This document shows positions 5,713 through 14,711 of a DNA stretch of 64,000 nucleotides, one piece after another. Where the stretch lies: positions 1-64,000 of the IMG/VR virus record IMGVR_UViG_3300042402_001861, one strand, 5' to 3'. The translations under genes and the position numbers were made by a program. Origin of the DNA: a virus. Under the pieces are notes generated by a model. The model had not been told where the DNA came from and searched no databases. It saw nothing but the letters and a program-made list of their open reading frames with translations. Positions within the stretch are counted from its first letter, which is position 1; the number at the start of each line of letters is the position of its first letter.

Positions 5713-6504
5713 ATGGCTGACTCTGACAAGAACATCATCATCCGCCCCAATCGCGGTGCAACGGGATCGACCGGGCAGCCGCAGATACGGTTTGTCGGTC
5801 AGAATGCCGATCCGATCACGCTGCGAGTCCTTGACATCACGGGAAGCAGCGCCGGGGCTATCTCGTTCGAGGGTTCTGCCGGACAGTTGTTCTCCATTAC
5901 CAACTCCCTGACATCGGGAAGTATCTTCAGCGTCAACGACATTTCTGGATTACCGAGCATCGATGTCAATGCCAACGGGACCATCCTTTTCGCCGGATTC
6001 ACGGGAAATGTCGGAATCGGTGCAACGGCAGGCATATCGGGTTCGGCACAGAGATTGACCGTGGTTGGCGGAATACATGTGACGGGAGGGGCAAGCAACA
6101 TCGGCGGAACCCTGAACATGAACACGAACCTGATTCGTGACCTTGAGATGCGTGACTATTACGAGACATTGACAACGCCGACATTCTCGGGAGGTGTACT
6201 GACATGTGACCTCAATTCATCTCAGGTCTTCACTCATACCTTGCACTCTTCCATCAACCGCATCGTCCTGAGCAATGTCCCAACCAAGACAAATACGGTC
6301 ATGGGATTCACCCTTGTTGTGAAGCAAGGCACAACGGGCGGAAACACGGCTGCATTCTCGGGCATATCGGGTGCCACGACATTGTTCGCAAACAACGAGG
6401 TTCCCGTCATGTCAACTGGTGCAAACAAGACTGACATAGTTTCATATGTCACCTATGACAACGGTTCAAACTGGTTTGGATTTTTGGGAGGACAGAATTT
6501 CTGA
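5713..6504 (+). CDS. Virion structural protein with glycine-rich beta repeats
   Basis: 263 residues. It begins 'MADSDKNIIIRPNRGATGST' and continues with repeats such as 'DITGSSAGAISFEGSAGQLF', 'SLTSGSIFSVNDISGLPSID' and 'NVGIGATAGISGSAQRLTVV'. This serial pattern is common in phage fibre proteins, where a beta-prism or helix shaft is followed by a globular end (here the last ~90 residues). It lies one base upstream of the RCC1-repeat gene, so the two are probably made together and may assemble as fibre shaft and tip. No enzymatic motif seen. Confidence 0.7.
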   Translation: MADSDKNIIIRPNRGATGSTGQPQIRFVGQNADPITLRVLDITGSSAGAISFEGSAGQLFSITNSLTSGSIFSVNDISGLPSIDVNANGTILFAGFTGNVGIGATAGISGSAQRLTVVGGIHVTGGASNIGGTLNMNTNLIRDLEMRDYYETLTTPTFSGGVLTCDLNSSQVFTHTLHSSINRIVLSNVPTKTNTVMGFTLVVKQGTTGGNTAAFSGISGATTLFANNEVPVMSTGANKTDIVSYVTYDNGSNWFGFLGGQNF

Positions 6505-6505
6505 T

Positions 6506-8854
6506 ATGTTCGGTGGCATGAATTCCAACATCATTCGCAGAAAACCCGAAACAGGAAACCTTTGGGTATGGGGCAGAGGCTACAACTATGGGTTCCTTGG
6601 ACTTGGAAATCGTGTGAATCTGTCTTCGCCTGTTGCATTGGGTAGAAGAAACGACTGGTATTCTGTTTCTTCTTCGGCAACTCATGCCCTTGCATTGACC
6701 GTAGGAGGAAGATTGTGGGCATGGGGAAACAGCAACAATGGTGAAATAGGAGACAACACCAACCAACCAAGATCATCGCCTGTACAGATAGGCACCTTGA
6801 CCGACTGGACATATGCCCATGCAGGAAGAACCACTTCCTTTGCCATGAGAAGCAATGGAACATTGTGGGCATGGGGACAAAATGGTTCGGGCCAACTTGG
6901 CATCAACAGAACTACAAACACCAACAGTCCGATACAGGTCACATCGGGAGGATTCACGGGTTTTTGGAAAAGCGTAAATGTTGATGAGGCCACGGCAGCG
7001 GTTCGTGGAGATGGGACTTTGTGGACTTGTGGCCTGAACAACTATGGACAACTTGGATTAGGTGTCTTTGGCACCAATATGTCGGTACTCATGCAAGTGA
7101 CGGGAGGAAGCGGAGGCACGGGTGGCTGGAGCAAGGTATCCTCGGGAAGAACACACATATTGGCCCTGAAGGAAGATGGGACATTATGGGCAGCAGGAAA
7201 CAACAGCGCAGGACAACTTGGACTCGGCAACACGGTTTCTAGGTCTGTCTTCTTTCAGATAACTGGAGGGGCAGGAGCAACCAATGACTGGATGCTTCCC
7301 GTGGCAAACAAGGGATTCGGAAGAAAATCATTCGCAATCAAGAGAAACGGCACATTGTGGGGATGGGGATACAATAATTTCTTCTCTCTTGGCTTGGGCG
7401 ATTCGTCAAATCGTTCTGTGCCGGTTCAGATAGGAACATTCACCGACTGGGTTGCCATGATGCCAAGCACGAATGGAGGAACCTTTGGGTTGCGAAGAAA
7501 TGGAACGCTATGGATATGGGGGAACAACAATTATGGCATGGCCGGACAGAGCCTCAGCACATATGGATGGTCGCCCGTGCAGATGGGCACGGGAAACGAC
7601 TGGTCTTCTCTGCTTCAGTCGGGAAGCAACTCTTACAATTTCCTGTTTGCATTGAAGACCAATGGAACCATGTGGGCATGGGGCAGAGGACAGGGAAATT
7701 ACCGTCAGTTGGGATTGGGAAACACGACCAATTTCTCTGCCCCACAGCAGATAACCGGCGGAGGAGGCGCAACCAACGATTGGAAGATGGTCGGTCCAAG
7801 AAGGCAGGGAGGACATGCACTCAGAAACAACGGAACTCTCTGGGGTTGGGGAGAAGCATTTGACTTTCAGAATGGCGACGGAACAAGCACCACAAGATCA
7901 GTACCAACATTGGTGACAGGCGGAGCCGGGGCAACCAATGATTGGGCGACATTTTCTACTGGTCGTTCATTTTGCATGGCCATCAAGACCAATGGAACGC
8001 TTTGGGGGTGGGGAAGAAACAATTACGGTAACCTTGGATTGGGAGACACCACCACCCGATCCTTCGCCACACAGGTTGGCACCGGCAACAATTGGTCCGC
8101 TGTCAAGTGCGGATTTGCCGAAGTACTTGCCACCAAGACCGATGGAACCTTGTGGGGCTGGGGAAGAAATGCAAACGGACAACTTGGATTGCGTGACACG
8201 GTTGCAAGATCATCTCCCGTACAGATCACGGGAGCAGGGGAAACCGGCTGGACAAGGGGACTCACTTCCCTCGGCGTTGGAGGAAGGCATTGCCTTGTGA
8301 TACGAGAAAATGGAACCCTGTGGGGGTTGGGTGGATATGACGGAAGACTTCTTGGAAATGGCGTATTCGGGGGACGGTCAGTCCCCATGCAAATCACGGG
8401 TGCAACTCCCGGTGGCGGCACAAATGACTGGCTTCAGGTAAATTGTACACAAAATCAGACATTTGCATTGAAGACGGACGGCACTCTGTGGTGCTGTGGA
8501 TTTAACGGGTATTCCGTTCTTGGCCTAGGCCGTGCAGGAGAACTTCGTGGGGGTGATGGCTTCGGTCTTGTTGGCAGATTCACTCTTCAGGGAACAACGG
8601 CTGACAAGTGGAAGGATGTTTCTGGAAATGGAGTCAGCATAGCAGGAATACGCCAAGACGGAACCCTTTGGGGATGGGGGGGCAGGAATTACGGCGTTGG
8701 TTGCGTTCCTTACATGGTTCTTATCTCTTCTCCGATGTTGGTATCTTCCTTCAATGGGTGGACAACCAACATTGGAGCAACGGGAGTCAGAAACATTGGA
8801 ACCGGGATCGGTTCGGCAATGGTCATTCGCAGAAGGAAGACAGATCCGAATTGA
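6506..8854 (+). CDS. RCC1-like beta-propeller protein with 14 repeats
   Basis: 782 residues. The ATG at 6506 lies one base after the preceding stop; a longer reading from 6446 would run 59 bases into the neighbour and is not preferred. The motif 'NGTLWAWG' or close variants occurs 14 times (GNLWVWG near the start, GTLWGWGGRN near the end), each followed by 'GQLGLGNTxxRSxPxQI'-type sequence. RCC1 propellers have seven blades, so 14 copies fit two propellers in tandem. Such propellers usually bind proteins or surface ligands. With adhesin genes on its left it is probably a receptor-binding or decoration protein. No signal peptide or catalytic motif seen. Confidence 0.85.
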   Translation: MFGGMNSNIIRRKPETGNLWVWGRGYNYGFLGLGNRVNLSSPVALGRRNDWYSVSSSATHALALTVGGRLWAWGNSNNGEIGDNTNQPRSSPVQIGTLTDWTYAHAGRTTSFAMRSNGTLWAWGQNGSGQLGINRTTNTNSPIQVTSGGFTGFWKSVNVDEATAAVRGDGTLWTCGLNNYGQLGLGVFGTNMSVLMQVTGGSGGTGGWSKVSSGRTHILALKEDGTLWAAGNNSAGQLGLGNTVSRSVFFQITGGAGATNDWMLPVANKGFGRKSFAIKRNGTLWGWGYNNFFSLGLGDSSNRSVPVQIGTFTDWVAMMPSTNGGTFGLRRNGTLWIWGNNNYGMAGQSLSTYGWSPVQMGTGNDWSSLLQSGSNSYNFLFALKTNGTMWAWGRGQGNYRQLGLGNTTNFSAPQQITGGGGATNDWKMVGPRRQGGHALRNNGTLWGWGEAFDFQNGDGTSTTRSVPTLVTGGAGATNDWATFSTGRSFCMAIKTNGTLWGWGRNNYGNLGLGDTTTRSFATQVGTGNNWSAVKCGFAEVLATKTDGTLWGWGRNANGQLGLRDTVARSSPVQITGAGETGWTRGLTSLGVGGRHCLVIRENGTLWGLGGYDGRLLGNGVFGGRSVPMQITGATPGGGTNDWLQVNCTQNQTFALKTDGTLWCCGFNGYSVLGLGRAGELRGGDGFGLVGRFTLQGTTADKWKDVSGNGVSIAGIRQDGTLWGWGGRNYGVGCVPYMVLISSPMLVSSFNGWTTNIGATGVRNIGTGIGSAMVIRRRKTDPN

Positions 8855-8921: not shown

Positions 8922-10766
8922 ATGCAGCATACCATTCATTTTCTTTCCGGCCTGCCTCGCAGCGGGTCAACCGTCCTCTCCTCCCTCCTCAATCAGCATC
9001 CACAGGTTCATTCCACTTCAACTAGTGGTCTGATCGACATCATGGGTGCCGTCTGCGTGGCATGGGAGCAATCGCCTTCAACCGTAGCACAGTCTGCCGA
9101 CAAGGAAGAGGCATATCGCCTTCTCCGCTCCGTTGCCGACAGCAAGTATGAAACCGTGTCCAAGCCGGTCATCATCGACAAGAGCCGTGGATGGGCAAAT
9201 CCGCAGATCATGGAAACGCTGACACAGGTTCTCGGAAAGCCGCCAAAGATCATTGCCACGGTCAGGAACCCCGCCGATTGCGCTGCATCGTTTGTCCGTG
9301 TTGCCAAACCAAAGGATGTTCCGAATTTCCTGCGCTCTTCTCAACTCATAGCGCATCTGAAGTCCTCGTATGCAATTCTCAACCAAGGCTACGAGAAGCA
9401 TCCAGAGAATTTCTGCTTCGTTGATTACGATGATCTCATCCAGTCTCCGCAGGCGCAGATGGATCGCATCATCAAGTTCCTTGGTCTTGAGCCACACAAA
9501 TTCGATTTCCACAACATCGACACCAAGGTAGTTGCAGAGAAGGATGATGAGGCATGGGGGATTCCGAATCTTCACACGATAGCCCCTCGCTTGGGCAAGC
9601 AGCATAATCAGGATGCAAGGACGGTTCTTGGCTTCAAATACGATGACTTTGATCCGCCCAAGTTCTGGAAGGGGGAAAATTTTGAAGCACCACGAAAGAA
9701 GAAGAAGATTGACATCTCGGTGGAACTTGCCATGCGTGGGGAATTCGACAAGTCCTACAAGATATTGTGTGAGGCACAGAAAGAGAATCCCGAGTGCAAC
9801 AAAATCGCATTCAACATGGGTTGGTATGCCTTGCGTCAGGATCGCTTGCAGGAAGGCATGGAAAACCTTGCCCGTGGACGGTTTGAGAATTGCTTTGGCA
9901 ATCCCAAGCCACCCGTGCCGACTCCTTTGTGGGATGGAAAAAGCATGGGAACAATTTTGTACAATCTTGAGGCTGGCCTAGGTGACCAGATTCATGCCCT
10001 GAAGTACATTCAAGACATCAATCGTCGTGGTTGTGATGTTATCGTTGCTTGTTCTCCCGAACTCTGCCCGTTGGTGAAAGTTTGCACGGGAGTCAAGATG
10101 ATCATAGACCATGCAGCGGCAGGAATGGTCTATCATGACTTCTGGGTTCCATCCATGTCCGTGCTGTTGCCCCTTGGTTATGAATACAAGGACATCAGCG
10201 GAAAGCCATACATCCCACGGACACGGCATCCTATCAACAAGCGTCCTGTGATAGGTGTGCGTTGGCAGGGAAACCCCAAGTTCGAACATGAACAGAACCG
10301 AAGATTCCCCCTCAAGCCTTTCTTTGATGCTCTTCGCAACATAGATGCGGATTTCATTTGCTTGCAGCGTGACGAAGGGGAGGAAGACTGTCCAGACTTC
10401 ATCAAAAAAGTTGCTCTCAATGATTGGGAACAGACACGGGATGCAATCTCAGGATGTGACTTAGTGATTTCCTCATGTACAAGCGTTGCCCATCTTGCGG
10501 GTGCAATGGGAGTTGAAACCTGGGTCGTGGTTCCTGTTCTCAATTATTACATTTGGAGCGTACCGGGGAACAAGACACCATTCTATGATTCGGTACGGCT
10601 ATTTCGTCAGCAGAAATTTGGCTGTTGGAAGGCTCCGACACAGGAAATTGCCGAGGCATTGGCTGCTAAATATCCGAGCATCAAGCCGCCATCGAAGGCT
10701 GCACCAAGAACAACAAAGGCAACAAGGAGAAATCACAATGCAGAAATATGTCAGAGTAGAGAATGA
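8922..10766 (+). CDS. Sulfotransferase-TPR-heptosyltransferase-like (GT9) fusion
   Basis: 614 residues in three parts. Residues ~1-240 are a PAPS-dependent sulfotransferase: P-loop-like 'LSGLPRSGSTVLSSLLNQHP' near the start and a 3'-phosphate site 'VRNPADCAASFVRVAK'. Residues ~255-325 look like TPR helices ('AMRGEFDKSYKILCEAQKEN'). Residues ~335-590 resemble GT9 (ADP-heptose:LPS heptosyltransferase) proteins: 'EAGLGDQIHALKYIQ', 'IGVRWQGNPKFEHEQNRRFP' and 'CDLVISSCTSVAHLAGAMGV'. The enzyme could sulfate and glycosylate a host surface glycan or a virion protein. The neighbouring heptose-nucleotide genes support heptose as donor sugar. Its end overlaps the next gene by 29 bases. Confidence 0.75.
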   Translation: MQHTIHFLSGLPRSGSTVLSSLLNQHPQVHSTSTSGLIDIMGAVCVAWEQSPSTVAQSADKEEAYRLLRSVADSKYETVSKPVIIDKSRGWANPQIMETLTQVLGKPPKIIATVRNPADCAASFVRVAKPKDVPNFLRSSQLIAHLKSSYAILNQGYEKHPENFCFVDYDDLIQSPQAQMDRIIKFLGLEPHKFDFHNIDTKVVAEKDDEAWGIPNLHTIAPRLGKQHNQDARTVLGFKYDDFDPPKFWKGENFEAPRKKKKIDISVELAMRGEFDKSYKILCEAQKENPECNKIAFNMGWYALRQDRLQEGMENLARGRFENCFGNPKPPVPTPLWDGKSMGTILYNLEAGLGDQIHALKYIQDINRRGCDVIVACSPELCPLVKVCTGVKMIIDHAAAGMVYHDFWVPSMSVLLPLGYEYKDISGKPYIPRTRHPINKRPVIGVRWQGNPKFEHEQNRRFPLKPFFDALRNIDADFICLQRDEGEEDCPDFIKKVALNDWEQTRDAISGCDLVISSCTSVAHLAGAMGVETWVVVPVLNYYIWSVPGNKTPFYDSVRLFRQQKFGCWKAPTQEIAEALAAKYPSIKPPSKAAPRTTKATRRNHNAEICQSRE

Positions 10767-11163
10767 CCAAGTGGTTGAATGCCTTGACTATCTTCCCGGT
10801 ACACCGGGAGATTGGCGGGAGGCAATCGACATCACACCGACTCTTATACCTTTAAAGCAAATTTGTGGGCCACATCATTTCGATATCAGCAAGAATCCCG
10901 TAGAAATCGTGTGGAGCGTGATTGACTTGAATGAGCAGGAACGGAAGGAAACATTGATGAATATTCTGGTTAGTCCCTTGACCTTCAAAATGCAGCAAGA
11001 AATGCAAAAAGAATTCAACAATTCTTTAGAGGGAATTGGAATGGATGTTGATTTTGTTCGTTCGTTGACTGAACAAGTTCGGGCAATCAAGACAGAGATT
11101 GCTGCCCTGACCACTCACGAAGAAATTGATGCATACATCGCCGCCAAGGGAATCACTCCCTGA
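10738..11163 (+). CDS. Unknown protein in sugar block
   Basis: 141 residues, not recognised. The ATG at 10738 is preceded by AAGGAG at good spacing, which decides the start; the frame is open further upstream, inside the previous gene. The protein has a beta-rich N-terminal half ('MQKYVRVENDQVVECLDYLP') and a helical C-terminal half ('ERKETLMNILVSPLTFKMQQ', 'VRAIKTEIAALTTHEEIDAY'). A CTAAATA at 10676-10682 inside the upstream gene might be its promoter but could be chance. The helical part resembles small tail-fibre-associated proteins only in a general way, so no function is offered. Confidence 0.55.
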   Translation: MQKYVRVENDQVVECLDYLPGTPGDWREAIDITPTLIPLKQICGPHHFDISKNPVEIVWSVIDLNEQERKETLMNILVSPLTFKMQQEMQKEFNNSLEGIGMDVDFVRSLTEQVRAIKTEIAALTTHEEIDAYIAAKGITP

Positions 11164-11193
11164 ACTGACTTTCACAATTAGTGGGGACAAGTC

Positions 11194-12006
11194 GTGAGAA
11201 TTGCTTTTACCATCATACATAATGGTCTTCATCACCTGAAGCACAACGATCAAGCGGAGAGAATCCTTTCGATGTGCGACAGGTGGGTGGTGGTGGAAGG
11301 AGCCGCCCGTTCCAAGGGCAGCACGACTTGGTGCAAGGAGTTTCCCGAAAGTCTCCATGAAAATGGAGCCAGCGTGGACGGGACATTGGATTACCTGAAC
11401 GATCTTTCGCAGAAGAACGACAGGCTGATCCTTGTCCCGTCCACCGGCTTCTGGGAATCCAAGGATCATCAGGTCAATCGGGCAATTGTGGAAGTCCGCA
11501 AGATCACGGATCGCTGTTTCCTGTGGGAGTTCGATGCCGACGAGCAATGGGATGCTGAGTCGATGGATGCAGCGGAAAAAGAACTTGTTGAAAAGAACGC
11601 CAAGGCAGGATGTTTTGCAGCAGATTGCTACATCGGCAGGAACCTGATGGCAATCGGAGATTGGGGCGAGGCAAGGACATACGGATACACCCGCCTGTGG
11701 AATTGGGAAGGCGAGAACTTCATCTGCCATGAGCCTCCCGTGCTTGAGGGGCTGATGGGGATCGATCCAACCATGCTGTCGCCTAGATTCAAGCACTACA
11801 ACTATCACTTTGAGAAGGATGTTGCATTCAAGGATGCATGGTATGGTGGTCATGAGGGAATCCTTGAAAGATGGAAGTTGATCAATTCCCTTGACAAGCG
11901 ATTCTTCCCAATGCACATCTCAAACCTCATCACGGGGCCGTGGGGCAAGTCCAACAGCGCAATAATATGGAACAATAGAAATGAAGAACATCCTCGTCAT
12001 TGGTGA
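11194..12006 (+). CDS. Glycosyltransferase, GT-A type
   Basis: 270 residues from a GTG start with GGGGA upstream. It has the layout of small GT-A glycosyltransferases: 'MRIAFTIIHNGLHHLKHNDQ' at the N-terminus, a Rossmann-like strand 'CDRWVVVEGAARSKGSTTWC', and the metal/nucleotide-sugar motif in 'FLWEFDADEQWDAESMD' (DxD-type). Relatives in phages and LPS clusters are assigned to GT2- or GT17-like groups; the exact family is unsure. It probably transfers a sugar in the same pathway as the neighbouring heptose genes. It overlaps the following kinase gene by 26 bases. Confidence 0.7.
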   Translation: MRIAFTIIHNGLHHLKHNDQAERILSMCDRWVVVEGAARSKGSTTWCKEFPESLHENGASVDGTLDYLNDLSQKNDRLILVPSTGFWESKDHQVNRAIVEVRKITDRCFLWEFDADEQWDAESMDAAEKELVEKNAKAGCFAADCYIGRNLMAIGDWGEARTYGYTRLWNWEGENFICHEPPVLEGLMGIDPTMLSPRFKHYNYHFEKDVAFKDAWYGGHEGILERWKLINSLDKRFFPMHISNLITGPWGKSNSAIIWNNRNEEHPRHW

Positions 12007-12721
12007 CAGTTGCCGAGATATCTTTGTGTACTGCGATGCACATAGGCTATGCCCCGATGTTCCTGTTCCTGTGTTGAATGTCTCCTATCAAACAGAGAAC
12101 AAGGGAATGGCTTTGAATGTTCAGGAGAATATCAAGGCTCTTGGACAGCCTTGCGACATCTTCACAAATTCAAATTGGCACGATGTCACCAAGACTCGCT
12201 ATGTCCACGCAACAAGCAACCATGCTTTCTTCCGTGTTGACTCTGGCATCAAGCCAGAAAGAATGATGAATTGTCCTTCTCTTCTATACGGGATGATCGT
12301 GATCTCCGATTACAACAAGGGATTTCTCAAGGAAGAAGACATTGCAGCCATCTGTTCCATGCACGACAATGTATTCGTTGACACCAAGAAGCGACTTGGC
12401 CCATGGCTCAACCATGCCCGATACATCAAAATCAATGCATCCGAGTACATGGCATCCAAAGAATTCATCACGCCGGAACTGAAGGACAAGATCGTCGTTA
12501 CCCTCGGCAAGGATGGCTGCGAACACAGGGATCATATCTATCCCGTGCAGCAATCCGATGTCCGTGATGTCTCGGGAGCAGGAGACACCTTCCTCGCGGG
12601 ACTTTGCGTGAAGTACTTGCAGACAAGCGACATAGAGGAATCCATAATGTTTGCAAATCGTTGTGCGGCTTCTGTGGTGAAGCATCGTGGAGTCACGGTG
12701 GTTGATCCGAATGAAATCTGA
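11981..12721 (+). CDS. hldA: PfkB-family heptose-7-phosphate kinase (HldE kinase-domain type)
   Basis: 246 residues. It matches the kinase half of HldE along its length: 'VIGDSCRDIFVYCDAHRLCP' then 'DVPVPVLNV' (HldE: SRISPEAPVPV), 'VISDYNKGFL' (SDYAKG), and the C-terminal PfkB signature 'DVSGAGDTFLAGLCVKY' containing the catalytic Asp of GAGD. HldE kinase domains are ~310-330 residues; this one lacks most of the segment after the 'LNVQENIKALG' helix. The reaction would be ATP-dependent 1-phosphorylation of D-glycero-D-manno-heptose 7-phosphate in the cytoplasm. The nucleotidyltransferase that is usually fused follows as a separate overlapping gene. Confidence 0.75.
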   Translation: MKNILVIGDSCRDIFVYCDAHRLCPDVPVPVLNVSYQTENKGMALNVQENIKALGQPCDIFTNSNWHDVTKTRYVHATSNHAFFRVDSGIKPERMMNCPSLLYGMIVISDYNKGFLKEEDIAAICSMHDNVFVDTKKRLGPWLNHARYIKINASEYMASKEFITPELKDKIVVTLGKDGCEHRDHIYPVQQSDVRDVSGAGDTFLAGLCVKYLQTSDIEESIMFANRCAASVVKHRGVTVVDPNEI

Positions 12722-13136
12722 AATCAACAAGATTGTACTCACCAACGGCGTGTTTGATGTCATTCACAGAAAGCACATCGAACTCCTGTCATTCTGTAAG
12801 GAGCAAGGTGACTATCTGATCGTGGCGATAGATTCGGATCGCAGGGTGAGAGAAACCAAGGGAAGCACTCGCCCAATCAACAGCGAGATGGACAGGAAGT
12901 TTGTTCTGAATTCCTTGAAATTTGTTGACGAAGTTCTTGTGTTTGACACGATCCAAGACCTTCGGCAATTGCACAAAGGGATTCGCCCAAACATCTATGT
13001 AAAGGGCGGTGACTGGCAGGAATCGTTTCTGCGTGAAACCGATGGTATACTTCCTGCCACCAAGGTCATCCTCTTTCCATACGAGAATTCCTATTCCTCC
13101 ACGAAGACCATAGAAAGAATGAGGCAATCGCAATGA
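12711..13136 (+). CDS. hldC: Heptose-1-phosphate nucleotidyltransferase (HldE C-terminal type)
   Basis: 141 residues from the ATG at 12711, overlapping the kinase gene by 11 bases. It matches the adenylyltransferase half of HldE: 'TNGVFDVIHRKHIELLSF', 'GDYLIVAIDSDRRVRETKGS' then 'TRPINSEMDR', 'IYVKGGDW', and 'YSSTKTIERMR' at the end. The reaction would be ATP + heptose 1-phosphate to ADP-heptose. The usual HxGH nucleotide-binding motif reads H-R-K-H: both histidines are kept but the glycine is lysine, which is unusual. Together with the gene before it, it equals one HldE split into two cistrons. Confidence 0.78.
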   Translation: MKSEINKIVLTNGVFDVIHRKHIELLSFCKEQGDYLIVAIDSDRRVRETKGSTRPINSEMDRKFVLNSLKFVDEVLVFDTIQDLRQLHKGIRPNIYVKGGDWQESFLRETDGILPATKVILFPYENSYSSTKTIERMRQSQ

Positions 13137-14044
13137 TCGTTGTTACCGGCGCATCTGGCTTCATAGGAAGCAGGATGGTTGCATATCTGAACACATTGGG
13201 CATCACGGACATAGCCGTAGTTGATGACTTTGAGGTCAATCACAGGCTCGGGTATGCAAGCAAGGCAAACTACGCCAACTTGCAGTCTTGTGAGTTTGGG
13301 ACCGTGCATCCAATCATCATGAGTAGGGATTCGATACTTCCTGTTGGTGACATTCAGGCAGTATTTCACTTTGGTGCCATCAGCAACACTCTCGAAAAGG
13401 ACACCTCAAGGCTCTACAACTACAATACCCGCTACACCTACATCCTTGGCGAGGCTTGCAAGGAGAGGGGCATTCCCCTGCTGTTCAGTTCAACCGCAGC
13501 AGTCTATGGCAACGGAAACGGTCCTCTGAACGACTATGCCAAGTCCAAGAGGATTTCCGAAAAAGATATATCTGCTCATGCCGTATGCTTCAGGCTTTTC
13601 AATGTGTATGGTCCCAACGAATCACACAAGGGCAGGATGGCATCGGTAATCCATCATTGGCACAACCAACTGACCAAGAACGGAATTCTTGAGATGTTTG
13701 AAGGTTCCCATGCGTACAAGCGTGACTTCATTTGGGTCAACGATGTGTGCCGAGTCTTTCATTCGGCATCGATCAACTACCAGCCGGGAATCTATGACTT
13801 GGGAAGCGGCAGGAGCGAAGCCCTTGACAAGGTTGCTAGAGTGGTGATTGCTGCTCATGGTGGCGGTGAAATCAAGGAGATACCGATGCCAAGCGACTTG
13901 GCGCTTCAGTATCAGACAAACACGCAGTCAGATATTGTTGCCATAAGAAACAATGGTTGGTGCGTAGACATGATGGGAATTGAGATGGGAATCCCCCTGT
14001 ACATCGAAAAGTTGAGGAACGCAAAATGGCAAGTCGCAAGTTGA
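13133..14044 (+). CDS. hldD: ADP-heptose 6-epimerase-like SDR protein (HldD type)
   Basis: 303 residues. Extended short-chain dehydrogenase/reductase with the NAD(P)-binding 'VTGASGFIGSRM' at the N-terminus, catalytic Tyr135-x3-Lys139 ('NDYAKSK') and Ser/Thr in 'LLFSSTAAVYG'. The stretch 'RLFNVYGPNESHKGRMASVI' closely follows the HldD hallmark FNVYGPxExHKGxMASV, which separates it from GalE- or RmlB-type epimerases. The reaction would convert ADP-D-glycero-D-manno-heptose to the L-glycero-D-manno form, the LPS inner-core donor. ATGA overlap with the nucleotidyltransferase gene shows coupled expression. Confidence 0.82.
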   Translation: MIVVTGASGFIGSRMVAYLNTLGITDIAVVDDFEVNHRLGYASKANYANLQSCEFGTVHPIIMSRDSILPVGDIQAVFHFGAISNTLEKDTSRLYNYNTRYTYILGEACKERGIPLLFSSTAAVYGNGNGPLNDYAKSKRISEKDISAHAVCFRLFNVYGPNESHKGRMASVIHHWHNQLTKNGILEMFEGSHAYKRDFIWVNDVCRVFHSASINYQPGIYDLGSGRSEALDKVARVVIAAHGGGEIKEIPMPSDLALQYQTNTQSDIVAIRNNGWCVDMMGIEMGIPLYIEKLRNAKWQVAS

Positions 14045-14394
14045 AGAGCGAGATGGTGGAAAAAGGTTGGGGCAACGAGATCATCTTTGCCAACAACGGA
14101 AGATACTGCGGAAAGTTGCTGAACCTGAACGCAGGAAAGAAGTTCAGTATGCACTTTCACCTGATGAAGGACGAGACATGGTATGTCGCCAAGGGAAGCC
14201 TGATACTTCGTTGGATCGACACCTCGGATGGCAAGACGCATTGGGAGAAACTTGATGTGGGAGATGTAGTGAGGAACTTCTCGGGGTTTCCCCATCAACT
14301 TGAGGCAATAGAAGACTCAACGATATTTGAAGTTTCCACCCAACACTTCGACCACGACAGTTACCGTGTACTGCCCGGAGACAGCCAGAAGTGA
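14026..14394 (+). CDS. Cupin-fold protein, sugar-phosphate isomerase-like
   Basis: 122 residues. Single cupin domain with metal ligands in 'FSMHFHLMKDETWYVAKGSL' (H-x-H then E) and a later His in 'GFPHQLEAIEDSTIFEVST'. The opening 'KGWGNEIIFANN' resembles the KxWGxE start of type II phosphomannose isomerase cupins. It could be a sugar-phosphate isomerase or epimerase acting on the pathway encoded beside it. It overlaps HldD by 19 bases and the HAD gene by 4 bases. The cupin fold is clear; the substrate is unknown. Confidence 0.7.
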   Translation: MASRKLKSEMVEKGWGNEIIFANNGRYCGKLLNLNAGKKFSMHFHLMKDETWYVAKGSLILRWIDTSDGKTHWEKLDVGDVVRNFSGFPHQLEAIEDSTIFEVSTQHFDHDSYRVLPGDSQK

Positions 14395-14711
14395 GATACG
14401 CCTTCGACATCGACAATACATTGGTTTCCACGCAGGGTAGCGATTACCAAAATTCAACCCCGATACAACATCGAATTGATTCGGTGAATCGTCTTTACGA
14501 GGAAGGCCATACCATAATTCTTTTCACGGCAAGGGGTTCTGCATCAGGCAATGACTATACAGAATTCACCAAGCAGCAGATGGAGAAATTCGGAGTCAAG
14601 TATCATGTTCTCATCACGGGCAAGCCGGATGTAGATGTCTTCATAGATGACAAGGCAATGTCGGTTCGCGAGTGGGATCGAAAGCAAGGACGAATTGTTC
14701 TTCGCTTTTGA
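14391..14711 (+). CDS. HAD-family phosphatase, candidate heptose bisphosphate phosphatase
   Basis: 106 residues from GTG (GTGA overlap with the cupin gene). HAD motif I is 'FDIDNTL' with nucleophile Asp6 and Asp8, motif II is in 'IILFTARGSA', and motif IV is 'DVFIDDKA'. Small HAD proteins of this type occur in capsule and LPS clusters. In the ADP-heptose pathway a HAD enzyme (GmhB) removes the 7-phosphate between the kinase and nucleotidyltransferase steps, so this gene fits that slot. GmhB is longer (~190 residues) and normally has zinc cysteines that are absent here, so assignment rests on context. Confidence 0.65.
   Translation: MRYAFDIDNTLVSTQGSDYQNSTPIQHRIDSVNRLYEEGHTIILFTARGSASGNDYTEFTKQQMEKFGVKYHVLITGKPDVDVFIDDKAMSVREWDRKQGRIVLRF

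Follow-up and report, generated by a model that had tools for sequence, protein, structure and literature searches.

A predicted five-gene route to ADP-heptose in a T4-like phage, with a cupin as candidate sedoheptulose-7-phosphate isomerase

We have analyzed a 64,000-nucleotide stretch of viral DNA (the window), which is the first 64 kb of the 177,364-base IMG/VR record IMGVR_UViG_3300042402_001861, and propose that five genes at 11981-14711, which overlap end to start, encode a route to ADP-heptose. In this route, to which we assign a probability of about 0.62, a cupin, a kinase, a small HAD phosphatase, an adenylyltransferase and an epimerase would produce the activated sugar, and a GT9-type domain encoded upstream would transfer it. 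The phage is T4-like, with baseplate, tail and terminase families present; its capsid protein shares 63% identity with the counterpart in Pelagibacter phage Mosig, and its B12-dependent ribonucleotide reductase has its nearest relatives in Roseobacter and Puniceispirillum phages. The cassette is mostly a new example of an arrangement already present in cyanophages, and the new part is the proposal that the cupin stands in for GmhA and the small HAD protein for GmhB. The following genes (positions in the window) are concerned.

8922-10766, plus strand: fused protein with an N-terminal sulfotransferase (Sulfotransfer_3), TPR-like helices and a GT9-type domain (Pfam; AlphaFold2 (AF2) model and Foldseek)
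about 9702-10703, plus strand: GT9-type domain within this fusion (structure comparison)
11981-12721, plus strand: short (246-aa) HldA-like heptose 7-phosphate kinase of the PfkB family (TIGR02198, PDB)
about 12711-13136, plus strand: HldC-like heptose 1-phosphate adenylyltransferase (TIGR02199, PDB)
13133-14044, plus strand: HldD-like ADP-heptose 6-epimerase (TIGR02197, E. coli HldD 1EQ2)
14026-14394, plus strand: cupin, 122 aa, candidate sedoheptulose-7-phosphate isomerase in place of GmhA
14391-14711, plus strand: small HAD-type phosphatase of 106 aa, candidate for heptose 1,7-bisphosphate dephosphorylation (GmhB stand-in)

Proposed pathway

Starting from a common host metabolite, the cupin would convert sedoheptulose 7-phosphate to heptose 7-phosphate, the step of GmhA. 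The HldA-like kinase, assigned by family, would phosphorylate C1, and the HAD protein, placed by elimination and by its exchange with GmhB in the same gene slot, would remove the 7-phosphate. Addition of AMP would fall to the HldC-like enzyme, assigned by family with an odd motif, and inversion at C6 to the HldD-like enzyme, assigned by family and active site. The GT9 domain, with its TPR-like helices and fused sulfotransferase, would then probably place the heptose onto a protein or surface glycan.

An earlier note on this DNA, made from the sequence alone, had described consecutive overlapping kinase, nucleotidyltransferase, HldD-like, cupin and HAD genes, and we confirmed both positions and overlaps, with NCBIfam matches far beyond chance. 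All five frames are intact and all five proteins have PHROG matches. The note had drawn the pathway from 10738 to 14711; its genes occupy 11981-14711, and the genes at 10738-11163 and 11194-12006 lie outside it. It had also let the pathway run from heptose 7-phosphate to the ADP-sugar, which is supported from heptose 7-phosphate onward; the probable GmhA step of the cupin was overlooked, and the start may be sedoheptulose 7-phosphate.

Three members of known heptose enzyme families

Judged from sequence, the kinase, adenylyltransferase and epimerase are very likely heptose enzymes, as divergent family members rather than textbook orthologues. The kinase matches TIGR02198 (rfaE_dom_I) at 6e-34 in two pieces, with 117.6 bits against a curated cut-off of 345, and PHROG 8133 at 1e-85. 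Its best solved relative by sequence is B. cenocepacia HldA (4e84). It has the PfkB fold, the PxxPVPV substrate segment (here CPDVPVPV) and the GAGD motif with its Asp (here SGAGDT), which is retained in 82 of 84 relatives. The adenylyltransferase, whose open reading frame begins at GTG 12687 with an ATG at 12711, matches TIGR02199 (rfaE_dom_II) at 2.4e-38 (131 bits, cut-off 181.5), and its best PDB match is B. pseudomallei HldC (5x9q, 2e-20), followed by the TagD-type 1coz (9e-14).

The epimerase matches TIGR02197 (heptose_epim) at 4e-65 with 220 bits, below the cut-off of 274.6, and is filed here as HldD-like. E. coli HldD (1EQ2) is its best solved relative (1.5e-50 across 292 residues), and in this alignment all four catalytic residues are retained (Ser116, Tyr140, Lys144 and Lys178 in E. 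coli numbering). The HldD hallmark that had been reported, FNVYGPNESHKGRMASV, is present at 13598-13648. Comparison with HldA, HldC, HldD and GmhB, which had been suggested as a check, thus returned the first three as best solved relatives and no significant alignment with GmhB.

The phosphatase step

The small HAD protein is not a GmhB by sequence, since E. coli GmhB, a HAD IIIA protein with a zinc-binding Cys cluster, gives no significant alignment with it; it may nevertheless act like one. It groups with capsule-biosynthesis phosphatases of the EcbF/BcbF type (PDB match 9iqw, 2.6e-22), and its DxD, T, K and DD motifs are invariant or almost so in 20 relatives. We place it at the GmhB step because it is found in nearly every cassette of named phages, because it forms one fused protein with the adenylyltransferase in L020, and because L014-L016 lack the HAD protein from their cassette and instead encode, right after the cupin, a true GmhB (35% identity to the E. 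coli enzyme). The small HAD protein is therefore a probable heptose 1,7-bisphosphate phosphatase, removing the 7-phosphate. The earlier idea of a phage ADP-heptose pathway with this protein as GmhB stand-in is supported by HldD and HldC as best relatives, by the GmhB in the HAD slot of L014 and by the fusions in L208, L017 and L020.

The isomerase step

Known ADP-heptose synthesis needs GmhA activity, and the cupin is the sole protein of the cassette left over, a candidate for this step. GmhA has a SIS fold and is unrelated to the cupin, which can at most act like it. In a profile search, the cupin matched D-lyxose isomerases of B. subtilis (2y0o, 5e-8) and Thermofilum (7nzo, 4.7e-7) over most of its length, while most oxalate decarboxylases and quercetinases aligned across shorter stretches; a weak likeness to type-II phosphomannose isomerase was also found (PF01050, 4e-4; 7zvm). 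With the AF2 model of the cupin (predicted local distance difference test score, pLDDT, 96), Foldseek ranked CapF and oxalate decarboxylase above D-lyxose isomerases (3mpb, 7nzq), which appear in the top 25. Mannose, fructose and Mn are reported to be bound in the Thermofilum enzyme by K62, H75, H77, K86, E88, H143 and E156 (PMC8378251). By the 2y0o alignment and residue spacing these correspond to K30, H43, H45, K48, E50, H90 and E102 of the cupin, which are invariant in 87 of 87 sequences and provide the metal-binding His-His-Glu-His set, two Lys and a Glu of a D-lyxose-type isomerase. The cupin has the fold and the sugar- and metal-binding residues in common with D-lyxose/D-mannose isomerases (2Y0O, 7NZO-7NZQ), and it differs from them in length (about 120 aa versus 170-200), in the phosphorylated C7 substrate proposed for it and in its location in heptose clusters.

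GmhA (SIS domain, TIGR00441) was not found in the 177-kb record, and the idea of a copy elsewhere in the phage was rejected. Among 28 virus records, 27 (this phage included) have no GmhA, and neither does any of 80 additional viral loci with the cupin. Compact viral cassettes consist of HldE, the HAD protein or a true GmhB, HldD and the cupin, and never contain GmhA. In the phage collection, each of the 35 records with the cupin has a heptose 7-phosphate kinase, which is of the PfkB type in 31 and of the unrelated GHMP type in four; these four have HddA beside HddC, which represent the GDP-heptose route. Since the cupin occurs with both kinds of kinase, it appears to follow heptose rather than one enzyme family, and its presence alongside HddA and HddC suggests that cassettes have exchanged their nucleotide branch. 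This combination was observed in Bellamy (L006), SynMITS9220M01 (L037) and AG-345-E15 (L043); SynMITS9220M01 also holds a second HddA plus GmhA, and GmhA and the cupin were seen within one cluster solely in this phage (both inside 7 kb).

Among 30 bacterial genomes picked solely for presence of the cupin, all have an HldE/HldC adenylyltransferase domain, mostly in frames of at least 500 residues, and 24 lack GmhA at a threshold of 1e-12. As a control we used 198 genomes from the phylum of one cupin-picked genome, counting as true cupins those above 150 bits: GmhA is present in 165 (17% are without it), and it is absent from all three genomes with a true cupin (Fisher p 0.004). A larger comparison of GmhA and the cupin gave p 5e-12, with genomes that come mostly from one clade and are not independent. 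Heptose enzymes and the cupin without GmhA were also found in Planctomycetota, Parcubacteria and archaeal genomes. The cupin tree has too few alignment columns for good resolution, and we used it solely for the way in which the heptose label clusters. Phage-like heptose cassettes or cupins also occur in metagenome-assembled genome bins of Planctomycetaceae, Euryarchaeota and Pelagibacter (L082, L083, L096, L045); these are probably misbinned virus contigs. On T4-like contigs that lack heptose genes, a solitary cupin gene lies between an FAD-dependent oxidoreductase-like gene and terminase genes (L152, L157, L158, L160, L168, L170, L172-L175, L178, L180, L183, L185-L187, L191, L193, L198, L201).

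From context, active site and genome distribution, we lean towards the cupin being a sedoheptulose-7-phosphate isomerase in place of GmhA. The broader proposal stands at even odds: that the 122-aa cupin represents a second, unrelated family of such isomerases across phages, bacteria and archaea with heptose kinases and without GmhA, and that it gives some phages a complete ADP-heptose (or GDP-heptose) route of four to five genes from a central carbon metabolite, including the phosphatase reported missing from viruses. A search of the open-licence literature for cupin, GmhA and heptose together found nothing.

Alternative explanations

Several observations weigh against the five-gene route. The kinase, adenylyltransferase and epimerase all score under the curated NCBIfam equivalog cut-offs; the kinase has 246 residues versus about 315, so that about 70 residues of HldA are absent; and the adenylyltransferase has HRKH at the site of the HxGH motif that is present in 80 of 81 relatives. 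In about 20 of the 80 viral cupin loci, the cupin is next to terminase genes and heptose genes are absent from the vicinity, most of these contigs being short, and 62 of 79 cellular cupin loci have no heptose kinase or adenylyltransferase within 6 kb. Several genomes have both GmhA and the cupin, many of the genomes lacking GmhA belong to a single clade and so are not independent, and the Patescibacteria sample for GmhA versus the cupin has just three true cupins, too few to be informative.

In one alternative, ADP-heptose would be made from heptose 7-phosphate supplied by the host GmhA, and the cupin would isomerize, for example, mannose 6-phosphate or modify the heptose. The lone cupins of T4-like contigs and of many cellular loci, the weak similarity to type-II phosphomannose isomerase and the genomes with both GmhA and the cupin would all fit it. 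We consider it unlikely, since the cassettes carry no accompanying GmhA and since HldE-type enzymes with the cupin and without GmhA occur in separate groups (Binataceae-type, Planctomycetota, Parcubacteria and archaea). In addition, the lipopolysaccharide (LPS) of cyanobacteria is reported to be heptose-free (PMC4390846), so that a host heptose pathway would scarcely be available to cyanophages. Viral cupins without heptose genes and cellular cupins far from such genes indicate that the family may be a mix that includes isomerases for other substrates.

It is improbable that the adenylyltransferase-family protein uses a nucleotide other than ATP. The altered HRKH motif and a resemblance to glycerol-3-phosphate cytidylyltransferase (3e-17) would allow this, and heptose nucleotidyltransferases with the STTR5 motif take CTP and UTP (PMC11573728); however, the STTR5 arginine is not at its place in the phage protein (YENSYSSTK), HldC is the best solved relative, and the same cassette has an HldD-type epimerase, which is ADP-heptose-specific in known cases. 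Still less probable is a remnant or partly broken cassette that makes no heptose donor: the short kinase, the HRKH motif and the scores under the cut-offs could be taken in this way, but the five overlapping frames are intact, the other catalytic residues are conserved, short GAGD-bearing kinases are the usual form among viral relatives, and the protein sequences recur at 100% in contigs from other samples, which also makes sequencing error behind HRKH unlikely.

Transfer of the heptose

The protein at 8922-10766 has a sulfotransferase in its N-terminal half (Pfam Sulfotransfer_3, 3e-20), and the Pfam search gave no GT9 match for this protein. The GT9-like domain that had been noticed upstream of the cassette was recovered by structure prediction: the AF2 model of the GT half (pLDDT 82.8) has as best PDB matches the ADP-heptosyltransferases WaaC (2h1h, 2.6e-5, with a bound ADP-heptose analogue), TibC (4rap) and WaaF (1psw) and the GT9 protein 3tov. 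WaaC, TibC and a GT9 protein occupy Foldseek ranks 1-9, which makes these the closest enzymes to this GT-B domain; the matches to these and to WaaF stand ahead of most other enzymes, with template modelling scores of only about 0.5 and identities of 10-12%. The motifs GxGD (9975) and CTSxxH (10470) are invariant in six relatives, and related GT genes share loci with the cassette in L021, L133, L181, L195 and L208. The predicted fold and the GxGD and SxxH-type motifs are common to WaaC, WaaF and TibC, and the fusion to a sulfotransferase and TPR-like helices distinguishes the phage protein from them.

On balance we favor heptosyltransferase activity for the GT9 domain, and the fusion is probably the user of the heptose donor. 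TibC heptosylates autotransporter proteins (PMC4358343). The TPR-like helices and the fibre-like and RCC1-repeat neighbours make a protein acceptor attractive, with modification of a surface glycan also conceivable. The position of the cassette downstream of fibre-like and RCC1-repeat genes would point less to DNA modification than to a role in glycosylating virion or surface proteins or in altering the host surface. Nothing was found in support of DNA modification by phage heptose or of interference with ADP-heptose signalling, both of which the earlier note had raised. The fusion of sulfotransferase and GT9-type domain is retained in L021 and L133; a sulfated-heptose glycan is a possible product.

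Comparison with other viruses and E. coli

The same five families are present in the cyanophages P-SSM2, S-SM2, P-TIM68, S-CAM1, S-CAM3, S-SSM7 and Sf-FS3. In P-SSM2 (PSSM2_309-313, T4-GC 304-308), S-SM2, P-TIM68, S-CAM1/3 and S-SSM7 they lie within a few kb, in several cases close to tail-fibre genes. Gene order and strand differ from those in the window phage, which additionally has the sulfotransferase-GT9 fusion. A minimal cassette of fused HldE (kinase and adenylyltransferase), cupin, HAD protein and HldD was found in L208 and L017, and the order HldE-HldD-cupin-GmhB in L014. In comparison with the E. coli pathway, the phage shares the kinase, adenylyltransferase and epimerase families and the catalytic residues of the epimerase, and differs in having HldE split in two, a small HAD protein for GmhB and no GmhA, whose place is probably taken by the cupin.

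In cyanophage records (L001, L002, L004, L005), the HAD protein of 106-115 aa carries the label "phosphoheptose isomerase", and the cupin appears as either "nucleotidyltransferase" or "cysteine dioxygenase". By family assignment these labels are wrong, which affects PHROG 1238 and PHROG 7851, and the cyanophage "phosphoheptose isomerase" was ruled out as a GmhA since it is the small HAD protein. HldD matches in Salmonella, E. coli and Listeria "phage" records were also rejected as phage genes, since these records are either draft contigs from hosts or short entries without annotation. For P-SSM2, a review mentions 24 "LPS genes" and the idea of a host-surface change against superinfection (PMC2984593).

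According to PMC11573728 and PMC11461863, the enzymes of viral NDP-heptose biosynthesis described by Tang et al. 2024 are active for the chosen viruses, and the phosphatase step is said in commentary to be absent in viruses. The genes in our study are likewise viral and predicted to serve ADP-heptose synthesis; the phosphatase has a HAD candidate in the present cassette and a true GmhB in L014; and a cupin isomerase is unmentioned in the two texts.

Neighbouring genes

Two genes between the fusion and the cassette lie outside the pathway.

10738-11163, plus strand: small protein
11194-12006, plus strand: protein with no assigned family

Pfam and PHROG searches with the first protein gave no match, and its gene stays beside the cassette in the relatives L021 and L133. 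The second has no Pfam match, no meaningful PDB match and no relative among phage records; its homologue in the relative L021 is fused to an FkbM methyltransferase. An RCC1-type repeat protein (6446-8854) adjoins the heptose cassette, as also in L017 and L021, that is, in three different phages. Two more sugar-nucleotide dehydratase-like genes (L030:11040-12050, minus strand, and L032:17439-18155), which are of the GDP-mannose 4,6-dehydratase type by eye, are present in the same phage record, with several glycosyltransferase-like and FkbM-like genes around them.

Significance

Phage heptose genes have long been filed as "LPS genes" under wrong labels, and two widely copied annotations, PHROG 1238 and PHROG 7851, are corrected here. 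If the HAD protein and the cupin fill both gaps, these phages would be self-sufficient for activated heptose, which would matter most in hosts with heptose-free LPS, such as cyanobacteria. The same proposal, if true, would account for heptose synthesis in many HldE-bearing bacteria without GmhA.

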